From Rickettsiales bacterium (lineage in GTDB: Bacteria > Pseudomonadota > Alphaproteobacteria > Rickettsiales > UBA3002), in assembly GCA_028281385.1 (NCBI GenBank), contig JANQJY010000055.1:1-34597 (forward strand): 34,597 nt of DNA. The letters are read 5' to 3'. Under the pieces are notes generated by a model. That model searched no databases. It had not been told where the DNA came from and worked only from the letters and a program-made list of their open reading frames with translations. A program made the position numbers and the translations under genes. This document shows, in pieces, positions 2-34,597 of the stretch. The stretch's first letter is position 1. The number at the start of each line of letters is the position of its first letter.

Positions 2-541
2 CTGATCGGGGAGATTCGCGACCGCGAAACCATGGAACATGCGATCAACTTTTCCGAAACCGGCCACCTTTGCGTGGCGACGCTGCACTCGAACAACGCC
101 AACCAGGCGATCGAGCGGATTCTGAATTTCTTCCCCGAAGAAAAACACCCGCAGGTGCGGCTGAATTTGTCGCTGAATCTAAGGGGCATTCTGTCGCAGC
201 GCCTAGTGCTCAACAAGGCTGGCGGGCGCTCACTGGCGGTCGAGGTGATGCTCAATAACGGGCTGATCAAAACCCTGATCGAGGAAGGCAAGATCCGCGA
301 GATCAAGGAGATGATCGAACGCGGCAGCAATGAAGGGATGATCACCTTCGACCAATCACTGTTCGAACTGTATCAGAAAGGCGAAATCTCCGAAGAGGTG
401 GCGATTGCCGAAGCCGATAATCCGTCAAACATCCGCCTGAACATCAAGCAGGTTCAGACCCAGGAAAAAGTCTCCGGCACACCCACCGTCGCCGATGCGC
501 GCGAGGAACGCCTCAAGCAGATGAAAGAGTTCAAGATTTAG
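2..541 (+). CDS. pilU: PilU/PilT-family type IV pilus retraction ATPase (3' part)
   Basis: The reading frame is open from base 2, so the 5' part lies outside the window. The visible 180 codons are the C-terminal half of a PilT/PilU secretion ATPase. They start in the Walker B/Asp-box segment (LIGEIRDRETMEHA), followed by the His-box segment (ETGHLCVATLHSNNANQA) and the region RILNFFPEE...LSQRLV. These features match PilU more closely than PilT, which usually has a GEMRD-type Asp box and a TLHTxSA segment. The family powers retraction or modulates pilus dynamics as a cytoplasmic hexamer at the inner membrane. The gene ends 23 bp from the convergent gene on the minus strand. The pilus-type assembly genes further right in the window fit a shared role, but they are on the other strand and not in the same operon. 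Confidence 0.9.
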   Translation: MIGEIRDRETMEHAINFSETGHLCVATLHSNNANQAIERILNFFPEEKHPQVRLNLSLNLRGILSQRLVLNKAGGRSLAVEVMLNNGLIKTLIEEGKIREIKEMIERGSNEGMITFDQSLFELYQKGEISEEVAIAEADNPSNIRLNIKQVQTQEKVSGTPTVADAREERLKQMKEFKI

Positions 542-6807: not shown

Positions 6808-8010
6808 TTAAATATTCATTTGCGAGAAGGACTGGTAAAGCGGTCCGAAGACAGACGCAATCACCCAGAAAATCAACGCCCCCATTACGGCGGTCATGGT
6901 CGGCTGAATCATACCCACCATCGCATCCACCGCATCATTGACTTCGCGGTGATAGAAGAAATTCACATTCTCCAGCGCTTCATTCATATTACCGCTATCC
7001 TCACCTACTTTGAACATGCGTATCACCAGATTGGGGAATTGATTGGAAATGCGCAGCGAATTGGTCAGTGATTCCCCTTCCGTCACACTGCGAATGGCCG
7101 TGTCGATTGCTTCTTTCATCACGCGGTTACCCACGACATTCTTGGCAGCATCCAGCGCTTCGAGAATATCGATCCCGCTGCGGAACATCACGGAGAAAAA
7201 ATGGGTAAACCGCGCCAGATTGATCTTACGCACCGTTGAGCCAATCACCGGCAACTTCATCACCATCGCATCGACATTATAGGCAAACCCGTCGGAAACG
7301 CGGTACATAATACGGCAAAATATAAAGATGCTAATCGGCGTTAAAAAGATGGCGTACCAATAGTCCTGAAACATTTCCGATGTCCAGATTAGCGCACGGG
7401 TGTGGATCGGGATATCAAAGCCCTGATTAACGATAAAATCGACCAGCTTGGGTACGACAAACAGCATCAGCACCGCGATCACCAGACTCATCAGCACCAG
7501 TAACGCGGTCGGATAGGTAACCGCCTTGCGCACCTTGCGCCGCAGTTCCGACGACCATTTCATATGGTCCGACATATGTGCGAAGGACTCAGTCAGATTA
7601 CCGTTGACTTCCCCAGCCTGCACCAGCCCGACAAAGACGTTGCCGAAAATGCTCGGATAATGCGTCATCGCTTCAGACAGCTTTTCCCCGCCTTTCACCC
7701 GCTCGCAAATATCGGACATGATATCGCGCAGCTTGAGAGAATCCGTCGAATCACGCACATCCATCAGGGCTTCGTGAATCGGCACGCCGGCACGGTTGAG
7801 TTGTTCAAGGTGCAAACACATTATAATCAGATCCTTTTGTTTCACCCGCGAAGCAAAACCTGCCTTTTTTTCCTTTACTTCCTTATAATTGACCAGATCG
7901 AGACCGATATCCTTCAGACGCGATTCGAGATCGATATCGTTATCCGCCATCAGCTGACCACGGATGGTACGCCCCATTTCATTAATCGCAGAATATGTAT
8001 AATTCGGCAT
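6808..8010 (-). CDS. gspF: GspF/PilC-family inner-membrane platform protein
   Basis: The 400-residue protein shows the duplicated T2SSF fold of GspF/PilC. The first copy is at about 62-185 (LEQLNRAGVPIHEAL, FVGLVQAGEVNGNL). Membrane helices lie at about 168-192 and 212-236. The second copy is at about 265-390 (RFTHFFSVMFRSGIDILEAL, MFKVGEDSGNMNEAL) and ends in a third helix. The N-terminal YSAINEMGRTIRGQL segment is also typical. It forms the membrane platform that the GspE/PilB ATPase drives to polymerise pseudopilins. It is the first gene of the five-gene unit running down to the ABC ATPase, and a promoter with ideal spacing lies about 90 bp upstream of its ATG. Whether the machine is a pilus or a secretion system cannot be decided here. 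Confidence 0.93.
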   Translation of the reverse strand: MPNYTYSAINEMGRTIRGQLMADNDIDLESRLKDIGLDLVNYKEVKEKKAGFASRVKQKDLIIMCLHLEQLNRAGVPIHEALMDVRDSTDSLKLRDIMSDICERVKGGEKLSEAMTHYPSIFGNVFVGLVQAGEVNGNLTESFAHMSDHMKWSSELRRKVRKAVTYPTALLVLMSLVIAVLMLFVVPKLVDFIVNQGFDIPIHTRALIWTSEMFQDYWYAIFLTPISIFIFCRIMYRVSDGFAYNVDAMVMKLPVIGSTVRKINLARFTHFFSVMFRSGIDILEALDAAKNVVGNRVMKEAIDTAIRSVTEGESLTNSLRISNQFPNLVIRMFKVGEDSGNMNEALENVNFFYHREVNDAVDAMVGMIQPTMTAVMGALIFWVIASVFGPLYQSFSQMNI

Positions 8011-8098
8011 TTCCCAACACGCTGTTATTCGTATTTACTCGCGCACCCTAATCGATGCACCCACCCGCCGAGAGGTGAAATCTTTTTAATTATGAAGG

Positions 8099-8127
8099 AT
8101 TATACGTGTATATGCAGCAGATGTAAA
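8099..8127 (-). promoter_or_regulatory. Strong sigma70-type promoter for the gspF-like operon
   Basis: On the minus strand TTTACA and a perfect TATAAT are separated by exactly 17 bp. The predicted transcription start is near 8092, giving a leader of about 80 nt before the gspF-like ATG. It lies between that gene and the heptamer repeat, so the five downstream genes can be transcribed separately from the gspE-like gene. Confidence 0.65.
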
Positions 8128-8159
8128 CGCCTGATGAGCGGGCGGGGATAACGCAGAGA

Positions 8160-8303
8160 GAGGATTTAGGATTTAGGGGTGAGGATTTAGTATAGTTGTA
8201 TGCGTCTATGGACGCACAAGATATATTTTGTTCGCGAAGCGAACGCATTCCCTAATCCCTAAATCCTAACCCCTAAATCCTCACCCCTAATTCCTATATC
8301 CTC
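8160..8303. repeat. Inverted array of telomere-like heptamers (TTAGGRN type)
   Basis: Two 31-bp arms, 8160-8190 and 8273-8303, are inverted copies with 29 of 31 bases matching. Both arms, and the 20 or so bases inside the right arm, are built of degenerate 7-bp units close to TTAGGGG/TTAGGAT. Read on the minus strand, 8250-8304 keeps the 7-bp register for about eight units. The spacer holds two more perfect hairpins: 8201-8216 (TGCGTC/GACGCA) and 8230-8244 (GTTCGC/GCGAAC). The array ends next to the stop codon of the gspE-like gene, so it is transcribed as that gene's 3' end and may work as a terminator or attenuator. Confidence 0.85.
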
Positions 8304-8304
8304 A

Positions 8305-10182
8305 CTACAGCCGCGCGGTCAGGTCCACCGTGCGGATCAGCTCCTTCAAATCGATCTCGCCGCGCAGCACCTTGCCGATTCCGTCCTGGACCATGGGGAT
8401 GAAGCCGTTTTCCAACGCATATTCCATCATGTGATTACGCGTGGCATGAGTGGCAATCAGTTCATCCAGTCCTTCATCGATGCGCAGGATTTCCATCACC
8501 GCCGTGCGCCCCTTATAGCCTTTGAAATTACATTCCTCACAACCCACCGCATCATAGACCGTCGGCGGCTCGGACGGATCGACCTGCATGATACGGCATT
8601 CCTCTTCCGTCGCCGGACGCGGCGTTTTACAAGCATTACACAGTTTGCGCGCCAGACGCTGTGCCAGACAGGCAATCAGCGAACCGGCGATCAGATGCGC
8701 CGGCACACCGATATCGCTCAGACGCGGAATCGCCCCCAACGCATCATTGGTATGCAGCGTGGTATAGACCTGGTGGCCGGTCAGTGCCGCGCGTACCGCC
8801 ATCAGCGCGGTTTCCTCATCGCGCACCTCACCGACGAAAATGATGTCCGGGTCCTGGCGCATGAGCGATTTGATCCCCGAATGGAAATCGACCGAACCCT
8901 CGCGCACATTGGTCTGGCGGATCAGCGGCAACTGATATTCCACCGGGTCTTCGAGCGTCATGATATTGACATCGATGGTGTTGATGTAACTCAGCATCGA
9001 ATAGAGCGTCGTGGTTTTACCCGAACCGGTCGGCCCCGTGACGATGATGATCCCTTCCGGTCGCTTCACGCAACGCTTGATCAGATTATCGTTATGTTCT
9101 GTAAAGCCTAGCTTTTCGAGCGGCATGAGTGCCTTTGACTTATCGAGAATACGCAGTACCACATTCTCACCATGCACCGTCGGCTGCGTCGCCACACGAA
9201 AGTCGATATCGCGGCCCAATGCCTTGAAGGTAATCCGTCCGTCTTGCGGATTGCGCGATTCGGCAATGTTCATGCCCGACATGATTTTCATCCGCACCAG
9301 CATCGCTGCCCAGTAATCCCGGTGGAACGAGCGAATCTGCTGCAGACGCCCGTCAATCCGGTAACGCAGCCGCAGGAAGGTGCCTTCCGGTTCAAAGTGA
9401 ATGTCCGACGCGCCCAGTTTGATCGCATCGATCAGCAATGAATTCACCAGACGTACCGTCGGGTTGACATAGCCTTCTTCGCGCCCGTCAAGTTGCGACT
9501 TGTCACGAATACCGGTCTCGATCTCGCGCAGAATCCCCTCGATCGACATTTCATATTCGTAATATTGCTCGACTAGTTCGATGATCTTGGTTTCGGTACA
9601 GAATAGCGGCACGATATTCGCACCGCGTGGTAAGTGCCGCTTGATCTGATCAATCGCCAACACGTTATAGACATCCGCCATCGCCAGCTTGATCGTACCA
9701 TCCGCTTCCTGTGCGACGGGAATCACCTTGTTACGAAGACATACTTCCTTGGGCACCAGTTCGAGCAGGTTGGGATCGAGCATGGTCGAGCCGGGATCGA
9801 ACTTCTCCGCCCCCGACGATTCGGCCAACACTTCACCGAGCGCCGACTCGGTGATGAAGTTCATCTCCACGAAAATGGCGCCGATCAGCTTCTTGGTCTG
9901 CTTTTGTTCACGCAGAGCAATATTCAACTGATCTTCGGAAATCAGGCCAAGATGGATCAACCGTTCCCCGATACGCATCTTGCTGGTATCGGCTTTTTTC
10001 TCACCTCCCTCTCCCTGTGGATTATTGGCATTTGCAGGCTGTACCTCTGCAGACACTCGTTCACCATTCGGACTGCCATTTACCGACGCTTCAGGCACAG
10101 CTTCCGCGCTCTCCGGCTGCGACGGATCGCCCGAAATCGCCTCACGACTGGCGCTCGAAAATGGATCATCTGATGGCTGCAT
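8305..10182 (-). CDS. gspE: GspE/PilB-family assembly ATPase
   Basis: The full-length 625-residue ATPase begins with an unstructured, Ser/Pro/Glu-rich N-terminus (1-65). The T2SSE N-terminal domain follows (about 68-205, starting MRIGERLIHLGLISEDQL), then the catalytic domain with Walker A GPTGSGKTT at 383-391, the Asp box near 410, Walker B with IIFVGEVRDEE at 448-457 and the His box near 470-480. A zinc-binding pair of CxxC motifs lies at C515/C518 and C548/C551. Zinc-binding CxxC pairs of this kind mark extension ATPases of the GspE, PilB and MshE group rather than retraction ATPases. It supplies energy for pseudopilus or pilus assembly with the gspF-like protein. The 294-bp gap to that gene, with its own promoter and repeat, suggests the two are not strictly one transcript. 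Confidence 0.95.
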   Translation of the reverse strand: MQPSDDPFSSASREAISGDPSQPESAEAVPEASVNGSPNGERVSAEVQPANANNPQGEGGEKKADTSKMRIGERLIHLGLISEDQLNIALREQKQTKKLIGAIFVEMNFITESALGEVLAESSGAEKFDPGSTMLDPNLLELVPKEVCLRNKVIPVAQEADGTIKLAMADVYNVLAIDQIKRHLPRGANIVPLFCTETKIIELVEQYYEYEMSIEGILREIETGIRDKSQLDGREEGYVNPTVRLVNSLLIDAIKLGASDIHFEPEGTFLRLRYRIDGRLQQIRSFHRDYWAAMLVRMKIMSGMNIAESRNPQDGRITFKALGRDIDFRVATQPTVHGENVVLRILDKSKALMPLEKLGFTEHNDNLIKRCVKRPEGIIIVTGPTGSGKTTTLYSMLSYINTIDVNIMTLEDPVEYQLPLIRQTNVREGSVDFHSGIKSLMRQDPDIIFVGEVRDEETALMAVRAALTGHQVYTTLHTNDALGAIPRLSDIGVPAHLIAGSLIACLAQRLARKLCNACKTPRPATEEECRIMQVDPSEPPTVYDAVGCEECNFKGYKGRTAVMEILRIDEGLDELIATHATRNHMMEYALENGFIPMVQDGIGKVLRGEIDLKELIRTVDLTARL

Positions 10183-30683: not shown

Positions 30684-32210
30684 ATGTCCATCTATGAAAT
30701 CATCAAGCATTATGGTTTCTCGCGCCTGCTACGGATGGGAGTAATCATGGCGTTGATGCATGCCTTTATCTTCTCTGCGCCTTCTCCTGTGCAGGCACAG
30801 GCCCCTAACGGCCAGTGGGGCGGCGCACCACTCGCCTGCCTGCCGGAACACGCTAAGAAATGGGGAAAGCGGCATGTCAAGACCCCGTGCCACTGCCCGC
30901 CGAAAGAGAAATTCTGCCCGCCGCCACTGGATTTGACAACAGATGATCTGTTGATGGAGTTTACCTTATGGCTGCAACTGCAAAACCCGAACGAAGAGCG
31001 GATATTCTCTACGGTGATTGCAGCCAGAGATACCAGCGCAGCTGACGAACCGATCGAAAAATTGCTCACAATGGATGTGCGCTACTTGCTGCGTCCGGAT
31101 CTGGGTGGTTATGGCGATATTTATGGGATGCTACAGGAAGATTTGTATGCGTATGTCGAAGAACATATTCCTGATGTCAACCGCCGCGTCGGTGATTATA
31201 GACTGCCAGATAACTGGGACGGAGGTAATCGTGATTTTGATAACAGCTTCACAAAGGCAACGATCAAAATCACCCGTTACTTTGATCCATTTGCCAAGCT
31301 CGACAATCTGGATGAGTGGTTATCTTCTGGTGGGGGGTTTATGCCTCCCGATATGATGAGCCAATGTTGCGACGGCGCGGTGTGTCCTGCTGGCTTAGCG
31401 ATGACTACACAGACAGTCACTGTCGAGCGCGAGATCTGTAATACGATAACGATTCCCGGCGAGATCATCGAAGAAGAAGTGTGCGAAACTACCGATAAAT
31501 GCGAAAGCGCTGCACTGGAAGATGGCACCCCCATTGCGTGTAAAGATTGCGACGATGTCGATGAAGATACCGGCATAGGTGAATATGAAGTCTGTGCCGG
31601 TGCGAAAACCTGTAACAATGTAGTCTGTCAGGTCACCTTCGAGGAGGAATGTGAGATCGTTGAGACACAACTGCCGGATGAATATGAAACGATGTGCGAG
31701 ATGCAGCAAGTCGATGTGGAAGTGTTAACCTGTAGCAATATCGATATTGAACATCGCCTGGGCTGCTTACTCGAAGGCACTGATATCACGCTAGAAGACG
31801 GCAGTGTGATCGATATCGAAACGCTTTCCGTCGGCGATCAGATCATGGGAGACATGGGCCCGGTTACCGTCAAGGCCATTAACAGATTCACCCAGGAGCA
31901 TGATACGGTATACGGTATTAACGGCGGCAAAGCCTTCTTTACGGAGGAGCATCCTATTCTCACCACCAAGGGGTGGCGTTCGGTCAGACCGGCAGCGACC
32001 AGCATTAAATCGGATATTACCGTGGGTGCGCTCATGGTCGGCGATGTGATCCTGACCCGCGATGGCAAACATATCACCGTTGAATCGATCGATAAGCATC
32101 CGATCAAGGACGGAGCAACCGTGTATAACATAAAAGTAACAGGTGACGGTACCTTCAGCGCCAACGGCATCCTCGTCAAAGGGTTCGATCAGGTCGAAAT
32201 TCAATATTAA
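30684..32210 (+). CDS. Secreted cysteine-rich protein with C-terminal Hint domain
   Basis: The 508-residue protein has an N-terminal signal sequence (about 13-39, AQA cut site). An unrecognised domain (about 40-225, with C52, C69, C71, C78) follows, then a cysteine-rich acidic part with 14 cysteines between 228 and 350. The C-terminal Hint domain runs from about 361 to 500: C361 in GCLLEGTDITLEDGSVIDIE, LSVGDQIMG, FTEEHPILTTKGW with T420 and H423, and MVGDVILT. Cys, TxxH and the VYNIKVTGDGTFSANGILV strand are hallmarks of hedgehog/intein-fold autoprocessing domains. There is no C-terminal His-Asn, so cleavage or ester formation rather than splicing would be expected. ATG 30684 has AAGGAG 8 bases upstream. 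The TadG-like gene follows after 14 bp. Confidence 0.8.
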   Translation: MSIYEIIKHYGFSRLLRMGVIMALMHAFIFSAPSPVQAQAPNGQWGGAPLACLPEHAKKWGKRHVKTPCHCPPKEKFCPPPLDLTTDDLLMEFTLWLQLQNPNEERIFSTVIAARDTSAADEPIEKLLTMDVRYLLRPDLGGYGDIYGMLQEDLYAYVEEHIPDVNRRVGDYRLPDNWDGGNRDFDNSFTKATIKITRYFDPFAKLDNLDEWLSSGGGFMPPDMMSQCCDGAVCPAGLAMTTQTVTVEREICNTITIPGEIIEEEVCETTDKCESAALEDGTPIACKDCDDVDEDTGIGEYEVCAGAKTCNNVVCQVTFEEECEIVETQLPDEYETMCEMQQVDVEVLTCSNIDIEHRLGCLLEGTDITLEDGSVIDIETLSVGDQIMGDMGPVTVKAINRFTQEHDTVYGINGGKAFFTEEHPILTTKGWRSVRPAATSIKSDITVGALMVGDVILTRDGKHITVESIDKHPIKDGATVYNIKVTGDGTFSANGILVKGFDQVEIQY

Positions 32211-32224
32211 GGGAGAACACGCAG

Positions 32225-33586
32225 ATGGCAGCTTTTTTACGTAGATTCCTTCATAATGATTCGGGAAGTGTTGTGGCGATTGCAGTGGTTGCTGTGTTTG
32301 TTCTGATCGGAGCCGCCGCCCTTGCCGTCGATGTATCGCGTTATCTGATTGTCAAAAGTAAATTCCGCACGGCACTTGACTCTGCCCTGCTTGCTGGCGC
32401 ATCCGTCGCACGCGAACGGAATGTCGAACAGGTGGTGAATGAATTTTTCCACGCTAACATGCCTGAAAATTATATGGGCACCAACCTGACGACAAGCATC
32501 AAAGTCACGACCGATCCGGTCAATTTCTCTTGGACGGCCACGGTGGATGCTGAAATGGCCACCCTATTCGCACGAATGATCGGCATTGACAAGATTGACC
32601 TCTTGCAAAAGGTGTCTGTCATGTGGGACATCTCAAGACAGGTCGATGTTGCCTTTACCATTAATACCTCTACCTCCATGTGTCTCGAACGTATTCGCGG
32701 AAAACGGGAGGATGGAACATTTGTGATGAGTTATCGCCCGGATCCTCAATGCAATAAACTCAACGCCATGAAAGACGCGATGCACTTCATTATCGAGCAC
32801 GGGTTTCAACCCATCGAAGGTGTCGGCGGACCGGTATATAATGTGGGGTTGATTCCTTATAATCATAAAGTCAAATTCCCTGATCCGCGCCGCGTGCCGG
32901 AAGAATTGCTGGCCATTGAGCGTGATCATACCGACGGCAACCCCGATTATTACCGTGATTTCAGCGACGCAGAACCGTTGCAGGCGTTAACTCCTCTGCG
33001 CCCTATTGCTTCGCAAGCGGATAAGAATTATCTACTCACTCAGATCGATCTGATCAGTCAAACACCTTACGGTTCGGGGTGGGTACGTTCCAATATTGCC
33101 GTCCTGAGCGGTGCACTGATGCTTGATCCCGACTACCACACCTATTTTAACGGGGCCATGCCCGGAGTAATGGATCCAATGAAATCCGATAAAGTCCTGG
33201 TGATGATGACCGACGGCGCCAATATCGGATGCTGCTATGCCGCCTATCCGGAAGATCATTTCAGCAATCAATATCTCTATCTCTATGCCATGGATAATGC
33301 ACATCTGACCGGCTATGGCGGAGAAGAATGGTTCACCGAATATGCCGAGGGTTTCGGTCTGGAAGAGGTGGGACTGTGCGACAGGCTCAAAACAGCCGGC
33401 GTCACCATCTATTCCGTTGTCTTTGATGTGGATGATCGTGATCCGGGCGGTAAGGAAATCAAACGCGTCTATGAAGACTGCGCAAGCAATCAGCAGTTCT
33501 TCTTTGATGTGGACAGTGCTCCGGCATTGGTGCGCGCCTATCAGACCATCGCATCATCATTCAACCGCCTGCGGATTACCTATTAA
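32225..33586 (+). CDS. TadG-like pseudopilin / von Willebrand A-type protein
   Basis: The 453-residue protein begins with a TadE/TadG-type segment: a short basic stretch, NDSGSVV, a membrane helix at about 15-36 and DVSRYLIVKSKFRTALDSALLAGAS. From about 138 it looks like a von Willebrand A domain: RQVDVAFTINTSTSM, later KSDKVLVMMTDGANIG (about 318-333) and TIYSVVFDVDD. The first metal-site motif, usually DxSxS, is N147-T-S-T-S here, so metal binding may be altered. TadG proteins are minor components tied to Flp pilus systems, but no other tad gene is visible. It starts 14 bp after the Hint-protein gene with a GGGAGA site and ends with NRLRITY, a typical TadG-like end. Confidence 0.82.
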   Translation: MAAFLRRFLHNDSGSVVAIAVVAVFVLIGAAALAVDVSRYLIVKSKFRTALDSALLAGASVARERNVEQVVNEFFHANMPENYMGTNLTTSIKVTTDPVNFSWTATVDAEMATLFARMIGIDKIDLLQKVSVMWDISRQVDVAFTINTSTSMCLERIRGKREDGTFVMSYRPDPQCNKLNAMKDAMHFIIEHGFQPIEGVGGPVYNVGLIPYNHKVKFPDPRRVPEELLAIERDHTDGNPDYYRDFSDAEPLQALTPLRPIASQADKNYLLTQIDLISQTPYGSGWVRSNIAVLSGALMLDPDYHTYFNGAMPGVMDPMKSDKVLVMMTDGANIGCCYAAYPEDHFSNQYLYLYAMDNAHLTGYGGEEWFTEYAEGFGLEEVGLCDRLKTAGVTIYSVVFDVDDRDPGGKEIKRVYEDCASNQQFFFDVDSAPALVRAYQTIASSFNRLRITY

Positions 33587-33670: not shown

Positions 33671-33744
33671 GGCCCGGTGGCAGAGTGGTGATGCAGAGGA
33701 TTGCAAATCCTTGTACGGCGGTTCGATTCCGTTCCGGGCCTCCA
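33671..33744 (+). tRNA. tRNA-Cys (anticodon GCA)
   Basis: A 74-nt cloverleaf is readable. The acceptor stem is GGCCCGG/CCGGGCC, the D arm GCAGAGTGGTGATGC, the anticodon loop TTGCAAA with GCA at 33703-33705 on stem GAGGA/TCCTT, and the T arm holds GGTTCGATTCC. The 3' CCA is encoded (33742-33744). A TTGACC box at 33621 with a weak TATGGC 17 bp later could be its promoter. It stands alone between the TadG-like and RTX genes. Confidence 0.95.
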
Positions 33745-33936: not shown

Positions 33937-34597
33937 GTGGAACAAAACAATACAGGGATATTTTCAGCAGGGCTGGACGGTAATGATACTGTCGTCGGCA
34001 CCGACGGTGCGGATACGCTGTATGGCTATGATGGCAGCAACCGTTCCATCTCCGACGATGACAAAGATACGCTGACAGGTGGACTAGGCAAAGACCTGAT
34101 CTATGGCGATGCCGATGATGATGTGTTGTATGGCGGCACACAACTCCATCATCCGGATGATGACGGCGATACCCTGTCAGGCGGGCTGGGCAATGACCAG
34201 CTTTACGGCAATGGCGGCGCGGACATGCTCTATGGCGATAGCGGTGACGATACATTGCATGGCGGCGTCGGCAATGATGTACTGATTGGCGGCAGTACCC
34301 GGGATGACAGCCTTGACGGCAACGATATGCTGATCGGCTCGTCCGGTTTGGATCAGATCTATGGCGGCGCGGGCGATGATACGATCTATGGCGGCCACGG
34401 CAAGGTCGACGAATCGGACGGCGCCGATACCATCGAAGGCGGCGATGGTGATGACCTGATTTACGGCAATGGCGGCGATGATGTGTTGATCGGTGGCGCA
34501 GGCAATGACACACTTTATGGCGGCTTCGGCATGAATACGCTGACGGGCGGCGAAGGTGACGACGTCTTCTTTGTCAACGATGTCAGCAGCGTCACGG
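33937..34597 (+). CDS. RTX nonapeptide-repeat calcium-binding protein (5' part)
   Basis: The frame from GTG 33937 is open to the window end, giving 220 codons of an unfinished gene. From residue 12 it is almost entirely Gly/Asp-rich nonapeptide repeats of the GGxGxDxLx type, for example GGLGNDQLYGNGGADMLY, GGAGDDTIYGG and GGAGNDTLYGGFGMNTLTGG. About twelve units are visible, broken by short Asp-rich inserts (around residues 68-82). Such repeats form calcium-bound beta-rolls in proteins exported by type I secretion. The GTG has an AAGGGA stretch 13 bases upstream, a long spacing, and no better start is in frame before the upstream stop. The repeats begin almost at once, so there is no N-terminal enzyme domain; any activity lies beyond the window. 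Confidence 0.85.
   Translation, partial: MEQNNTGIFSAGLDGNDTVVGTDGADTLYGYDGSNRSISDDDKDTLTGGLGKDLIYGDADDDVLYGGTQLHHPDDDGDTLSGGLGNDQLYGNGGADMLYGDSGDDTLHGGVGNDVLIGGSTRDDSLDGNDMLIGSSGLDQIYGGAGDDTIYGGHGKVDESDGADTIEGGDGDDLIYGNGGDDVLIGGAGNDTLYGGFGMNTLTGGEGDDVFFVNDVSSVT

Follow-up and report, generated by a model that had tools for sequence, protein, structure and literature searches.

What places a secreted, cysteine-rich protein with a C-terminal Hint domain directly ahead of a minor pilin? The two genes in question lie on contig JANQJY010000055.1 of the Rickettsiales bacterium GCA_028281385.1 (GTDB UBA3002), an aquatic, little-studied and apparently uncultured alphaproteobacterium, and we analyzed them within a stretch of 34,597 nt, referred to here as the window. 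To our knowledge, Hint domains of the BIL type occur widely in proteins that bacteria secrete, and for most of them no biological role has been defined.

The two proteins and the Hint domain

The first gene (30684..32210, + strand) encodes a protein of 508 aa; it was delimited by an open frame from an ATG with AAGGAG upstream and by homologues. The second (32225..33586, +) encodes a protein of 453 aa. Both reading frames have plausible ribosome-binding sites, and the stop codon of the first is followed after 14 bp by the ATG of the second, so that the coordinates and the gap given in the original prediction agree with the reading frames in the sequence. Promoter- and terminator-like sites were not clearly commoner than in shuffled sequence, and searches with PADLOC and PHROGs returned nothing notable.

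The first protein starts with a putative signal peptide (residues 1 to about 44; 30684..30815, +), recognized by eye from a hydrophobic stretch followed by AQA. Alignments and a profile search delineate a CHCPP module (residues 52-80; 30837..30923, +) of the form ACLP ... CHCPP ... C with the cysteines C52, C69, C71 and C78, the last three of which are present in the alignments of most full-length family members. The middle part (residues 228-350; 31365..31733, +) contains exactly 14 cysteines, the number that had been predicted. The pair CC228-229 and C234 are widely common to the family; the remaining cysteines differ among paralogues.

Alignments, a profile and a fold match place the Hint domain at residues 361-508 (31764..32207, +). 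Its block A nucleophile C361 (31764-31766, +) and the threonine and histidine of the block B motif TxxH, T420 (31941-31943, +) and H423 (31950-31952, +), are found at the positions claimed for them. The C-terminal fragment, however, comprises 148 residues and not 147 as first stated. All three residues are invariant across 18 aligned Hint domains with a mean column identity of 48%. The isolated domain scores 29.1 bits with Pfam Vint against a cut-off of 27, and every one of the 18 aligned family members matches Vint; the full-length protein reaches 25.6 bits, and its Pfam Hint-family matches are all under the cut-offs. When the profile of the 18 domains was compared with solved structures, the best matches were the BIL domains from Tetrahymena (BIL2, 1.5e-15) and Clostridium (2.6e-9). 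The full-length model has a mean pLDDT of 42, with about 50-75 for most of the Hint region. This low-confidence model matches BIL2 (Z 8.9, 117 residues, 3.0 A), followed by dozens of inteins and by Hedgehog, for which Z is about 5-8 (Hedgehog 1at0, Z 6.5), and thereby points to the Hint fold that had been predicted for residues 361-508. With this fold, the block A nucleophile and the block B TxxH, the domain belongs to the Hint superfamily.

Within the superfamily the domain resembles the BIL domains (types A, B and Tetrahymena BIL2) in its fold, its block A cysteine and its TxxH motif, but differs from them at the C-terminus and in being tied to a minor pilin gene. At the position of the intein His-Asn, which characterizes BIL type A, the alignment to BIL2 shows K499-G500 (32178-32183, +). 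Lys-Gly and a conserved VKGF...Y tail are found throughout the main group of the family; His-Asn is kept only in a second group (L062, L063, L064). Similarity to intein block G is absent, as in BIL type B. The replacement makes asparagine cyclisation unavailable, and therefore only the N-terminal step is expected. Since, moreover, only eight residues follow the Hint block, we expect no splicing and no toxin payload at the C-terminus. Judged by its conserved residues, the Hint domain likely cuts, and cleavage would be expected before C361.

Two other assignments were considered and rejected. An intein remnant does not fit, as residue 500 is Gly and not Asn, the +1 residue Phe501 is not Cys, Ser or Thr, and the domain is terminal in its protein. 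Hedgehog Hog likewise has an N-terminal autoprocessing cysteine and a T..H motif; the window protein has neither a Hedge domain nor the sterol-recognition region, and the few residues after its Hint block also argue against Hedgehog-type processing. A vWA domain and a Hint domain are also paired in the eukaryotic VWA-Vint proteins (PMC2362128), and it is their Vint profile that the isolated window domain exceeds. Those proteins, however, are one non-secreted chain with a Vwaint domain, whereas here two exported bacterial proteins are encoded by adjacent genes.

The second protein had been read as a TadG-like surface pseudopilin with a vWA domain, and this reading stands. It scores 26.8 bits with Pfam Tad (cut-off 22.3), and its model (pLDDT 82) consists of a long, pilin-like N-terminal helix (residues 1-60; 32225..32404, +) and a vWA region (residues 135-453; 32627..33583, +), the latter also delimited by fold matches and alignment. 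The closest folds include the pilus-tip protein Mfa5 (Z 20.0, 202 residues, 3.4 A); the pilus-tip protein SpaC and the minor pilin PilB are matched as well. The MIDAS-type motif reads NTSTS in the window and DTSAS in several paralogues; it is altered in several TadG copies, that of the window among them. Thus, the partner has the N-terminal Tad/pilin segment and the vWA domain of TadG-type proteins and is a minor pilin of a type that is proposed to sit at the tips of Tad pili.

Recurrence of the pair

The original prediction had inferred a functional link between the two genes and had asked for recurrent neighbourhood in other genomes. The source genome alone contains five Hint/TadG pairs, namely in the window, on C94, on C8 and twice in tandem on C56. 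We searched 344 genomes of the order and obtained a Hint match in nine of them, with 22 Hint genes in total. One of these genes (G001:C17) is undecidable, as the contig end cuts the locus. Nineteen of the other 21 lie in, or adjoin, a gene run with TadG, the exceptions being G007:C195, which is on a short contig, and G642. In total, we count 15 pairs in eight genomes. The arrangement varies: the gene order is reversed at G007:C150, one TadG gene of G003 is preceded by four Hint genes, and in G012 the CHCPP part and the Hint part are separate genes. At L060 (5083-10557, +) four consecutive CHCPP-Hint genes are followed by one TadG-like and two TadE-like genes. The relatives are deposited as Rickettsiales, as Rhodospirillaceae and as unclassified alphaproteobacterial MAGs.

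At the loci examined outside the order the association is not seen. Among the best nine Hint loci examined from other orders, the Hint domains end secreted proteins and TadG is beside none. Conversely, 76 of 80 TadG loci fetched across the Alphaproteobacteria have no Hint domain within a flank of up to 8 kb, and the four that do are all in the same family as the paired loci. A scan of genome contigs with a single Hint protein as query found no relative; the corresponding TadG scan rests on a tighter alignment, as the full TadG alignment has no conserved stretch.

The distances among the Hint proteins correlate with those among the TadG proteins (14 usable pairs, r = 0.57, Mantel p = 0.0002). 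Units inherited together would show such a correlation, so that linked inheritance explains part of it. Taken with the separate pair loci within one genome, these counts support the functional link. In viral contigs we found no TadG relative and only five Hint relatives. Two of these lie in phage-structural-like contigs, and L242 is an insertion that resembles an intein; these findings lend no support to a viral origin of the pair. One IMG/VR contig encodes a glycine-rich protein with apparently two Hint domains, the last of them C-terminal (L239 6828-8951, +).

Tad pilus machinery

If the partner is a Tad-pilus component, a Tad assembly machine should be at hand, and the source genome has one. 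A cluster on C10 encodes RcpC, a secretin, a weak CpaD match, TadA and two T2SSF proteins of the TadB/C type, with an AAA_31 protein in the position of CpaE; it is without the minor pilins TadE, TadF and TadG. The only strong match to a Flp pilin in the genome is on C8 (C8:68574-68705; L008 2575-2706, +), about 1.8 kb away from the pair on the same contig. TadE pairs of the source genome are found on C14 and C18. In the relatives, TadE-like genes lie in the same operons as the pair in G001, G003 and G009 and upstream of it in G012.

Such a dispersal may have a known counterpart. TadG-type proteins that have been studied are proposed to make up pilus tips together with TadE and TadF, and for Myxococcus several interchangeable clusters of them are described in the cited passage (PMC12075869). 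For Caulobacter, the cited passage presents CpaL as a predicted fusion of a minor pilin with a vWA domain (PMC12607857). The likeness to the Kil Tip/TadEFG proteins and CpaL, as far as these passages go, lies in a TadG-type minor pilin whose C-terminal domain is large, in several alternative clusters per genome and in the TadE-like partners found in the relatives of the window. The same passages contain neither a Hint nor a CHCPP partner, and a tip location in the window system is only what the likeness suggests. A single machine served by scattered tip genes would be similar to the Kil arrangement. Tad pili have also been reported from possibly free-living Rickettsiales (PMC9352585).

In the window itself, T2SSF and MshEN/T2SSE genes (6808-10182, -) belong to a machine like that of type IV pili or type II secretion, and a further T2SSE fragment lies at 2-541 (+).

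A possible tip cassette and its alternatives

We suggest, with middling confidence, that the pair is a Tad-pilus tip cassette in which self-cleavage of the Hint domain matures the cysteine-rich subunit. Starting from the anatomy of the two proteins, the conserved catalytic residues, the recurrent pairing and the Tad machinery, we infer a cleavage, a tip location and a role for the cysteine-rich part. The TadG-like minor pilin would display its vWA domain at the tip of the Tad/Flp filament, as its fold and the comparison with TadG, CpaL and KilN suggest. The partner would be exported, rich in disulfides, and would travel with the TadG-like protein. The BIL-like Hint domain would then convert the peptide bond before C361 into a thioester, aided by T420 and H423, and this bond would subsequently be broken. 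By the cut between G360 and C361, the cysteine-rich part would lose the Hint domain of 148 residues and so become the mature tip subunit. Several paralogous cassettes per genome could provide alternative tips.

How much of this depends on cleavage is illuminated by the tandem pairs on C56. The second copy (L009 3213-4379, +) has lost the catalytic cysteine and histidine of its Hint domain. Between the two copies, the N-terminal part agrees at 71% of its residues (dN 0.18, dS 0.56) and TadG at 85% (dN 0.09, dS 0.59). Their Hint domains agree at no more than 43%, and synonymous sites there are saturated. The second Hint domain was either released from constraint or replaced by recombination. As the N-terminal module and TadG were kept while the Hint domain diverged, both appear to form the more constrained core, from which Hint activity is separable; not every paralogue, then, depends on cutting.

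It is accordingly conceivable, though somewhat unlikely, that the Hint domain has a structural or folding function and hardly cleaves, the pair being an uncut tip complex. The retention of a degenerate Hint domain in the C56 copy and the missing C-terminal Asn of the main group would both agree with this, but then it would be hard to see why Cys, Thr and His are invariant in 18 divergent domains.

A second alternative keeps the chemistry and changes its outcome. Possibly the cysteine-rich part becomes attached, through the Hint domain, to TadG or a surface: an amine on TadG, on another minor pilin or on a foreign surface would attack the Hint thioester, the cysteine-rich part would be joined to it and the Hint domain would leave. 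BIL domains can indeed ligate the fragments that flank them, an amine attacking the thioester at the N-terminus (PMC4031507), and the strict co-occurrence with one partner gene would fit this reading. In G004, a protein at an assembly edge (L062) possibly combines the end of a TadE-like pilin with a Hint domain; we did not accept this fusion, as the TadE-type match is weak and not significant (E 0.077). Simple hydrolysis would leave an identical sequence signature, and one copy has lost its catalytic residues, so that we consider such attachment unlikely. More specific still, and for us quite improbable, is a covalent tip that acts once: the cysteine-rich part would stay bound as the thioester up to its transfer to an amine, whether of a partner pilin or of a surface that is touched, and this would leave a permanent bond and a shed Hint domain.

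The two genes could also be co-transcribed and yet act apart, with the cysteine-rich protein being, for example, a secreted factor unrelated to pili. The window has no TadE or Flp gene and thus none that adjoins the pair, and the related Hint domains of other orders do without a TadG nearby. The correlated divergence of the 14 pairs, the several pair loci within one genome and the TadE genes in sister operons nevertheless make separate action a rather improbable explanation. Finally, a polymorphic toxin, in which a PT-HINT-type domain frees a C-terminal toxin, is suggested by a weak PT-HINT profile match and is highly improbable: the eight residues after the Hint block hold no toxin domain, the missing payload refutes it for the main group, and the gene that follows encodes a minor pilin and is not immunity-like.

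The proposed tip cassette with a self-cleaving subunit would thus consist of known parts in a combination which we judge to be undescribed; in the open-access literature we found no paper which names 'Hint domain' and 'TadG' together. Here such a domain occurs in repeated cassettes with partners of one class only, minor pilins, and this association gives a BIL-type Hint domain a concrete setting in physiology that can be tested. If confirmed, protein self-processing would join the ways in which bacteria tailor the tips of their Tad pili.

Some further neighbours deserve mention. Downstream of the pair the window contains a tRNA-Cys gene (33671-33744) and, behind it, the gene of an RTX calcium-binding repeat protein (33937-34597, +) that runs past the window end. 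RTX genes are also beside the pairs on G000:C8 and G001:C38 and beside TadE/TadG of G001:C13. In all, four pair loci have an RTX neighbour; RTX motifs are abundant in the source genome (90 matches), so that we draw no conclusion from them. The same two neighbours, a glycosyltransferase-like membrane protein of about 428 aa and a second one of about 600 aa, recur beside TadG/TadE genes at L009 (5835-8965, +), L059 (1360-4451, +) and L246 (5893-8644, -).
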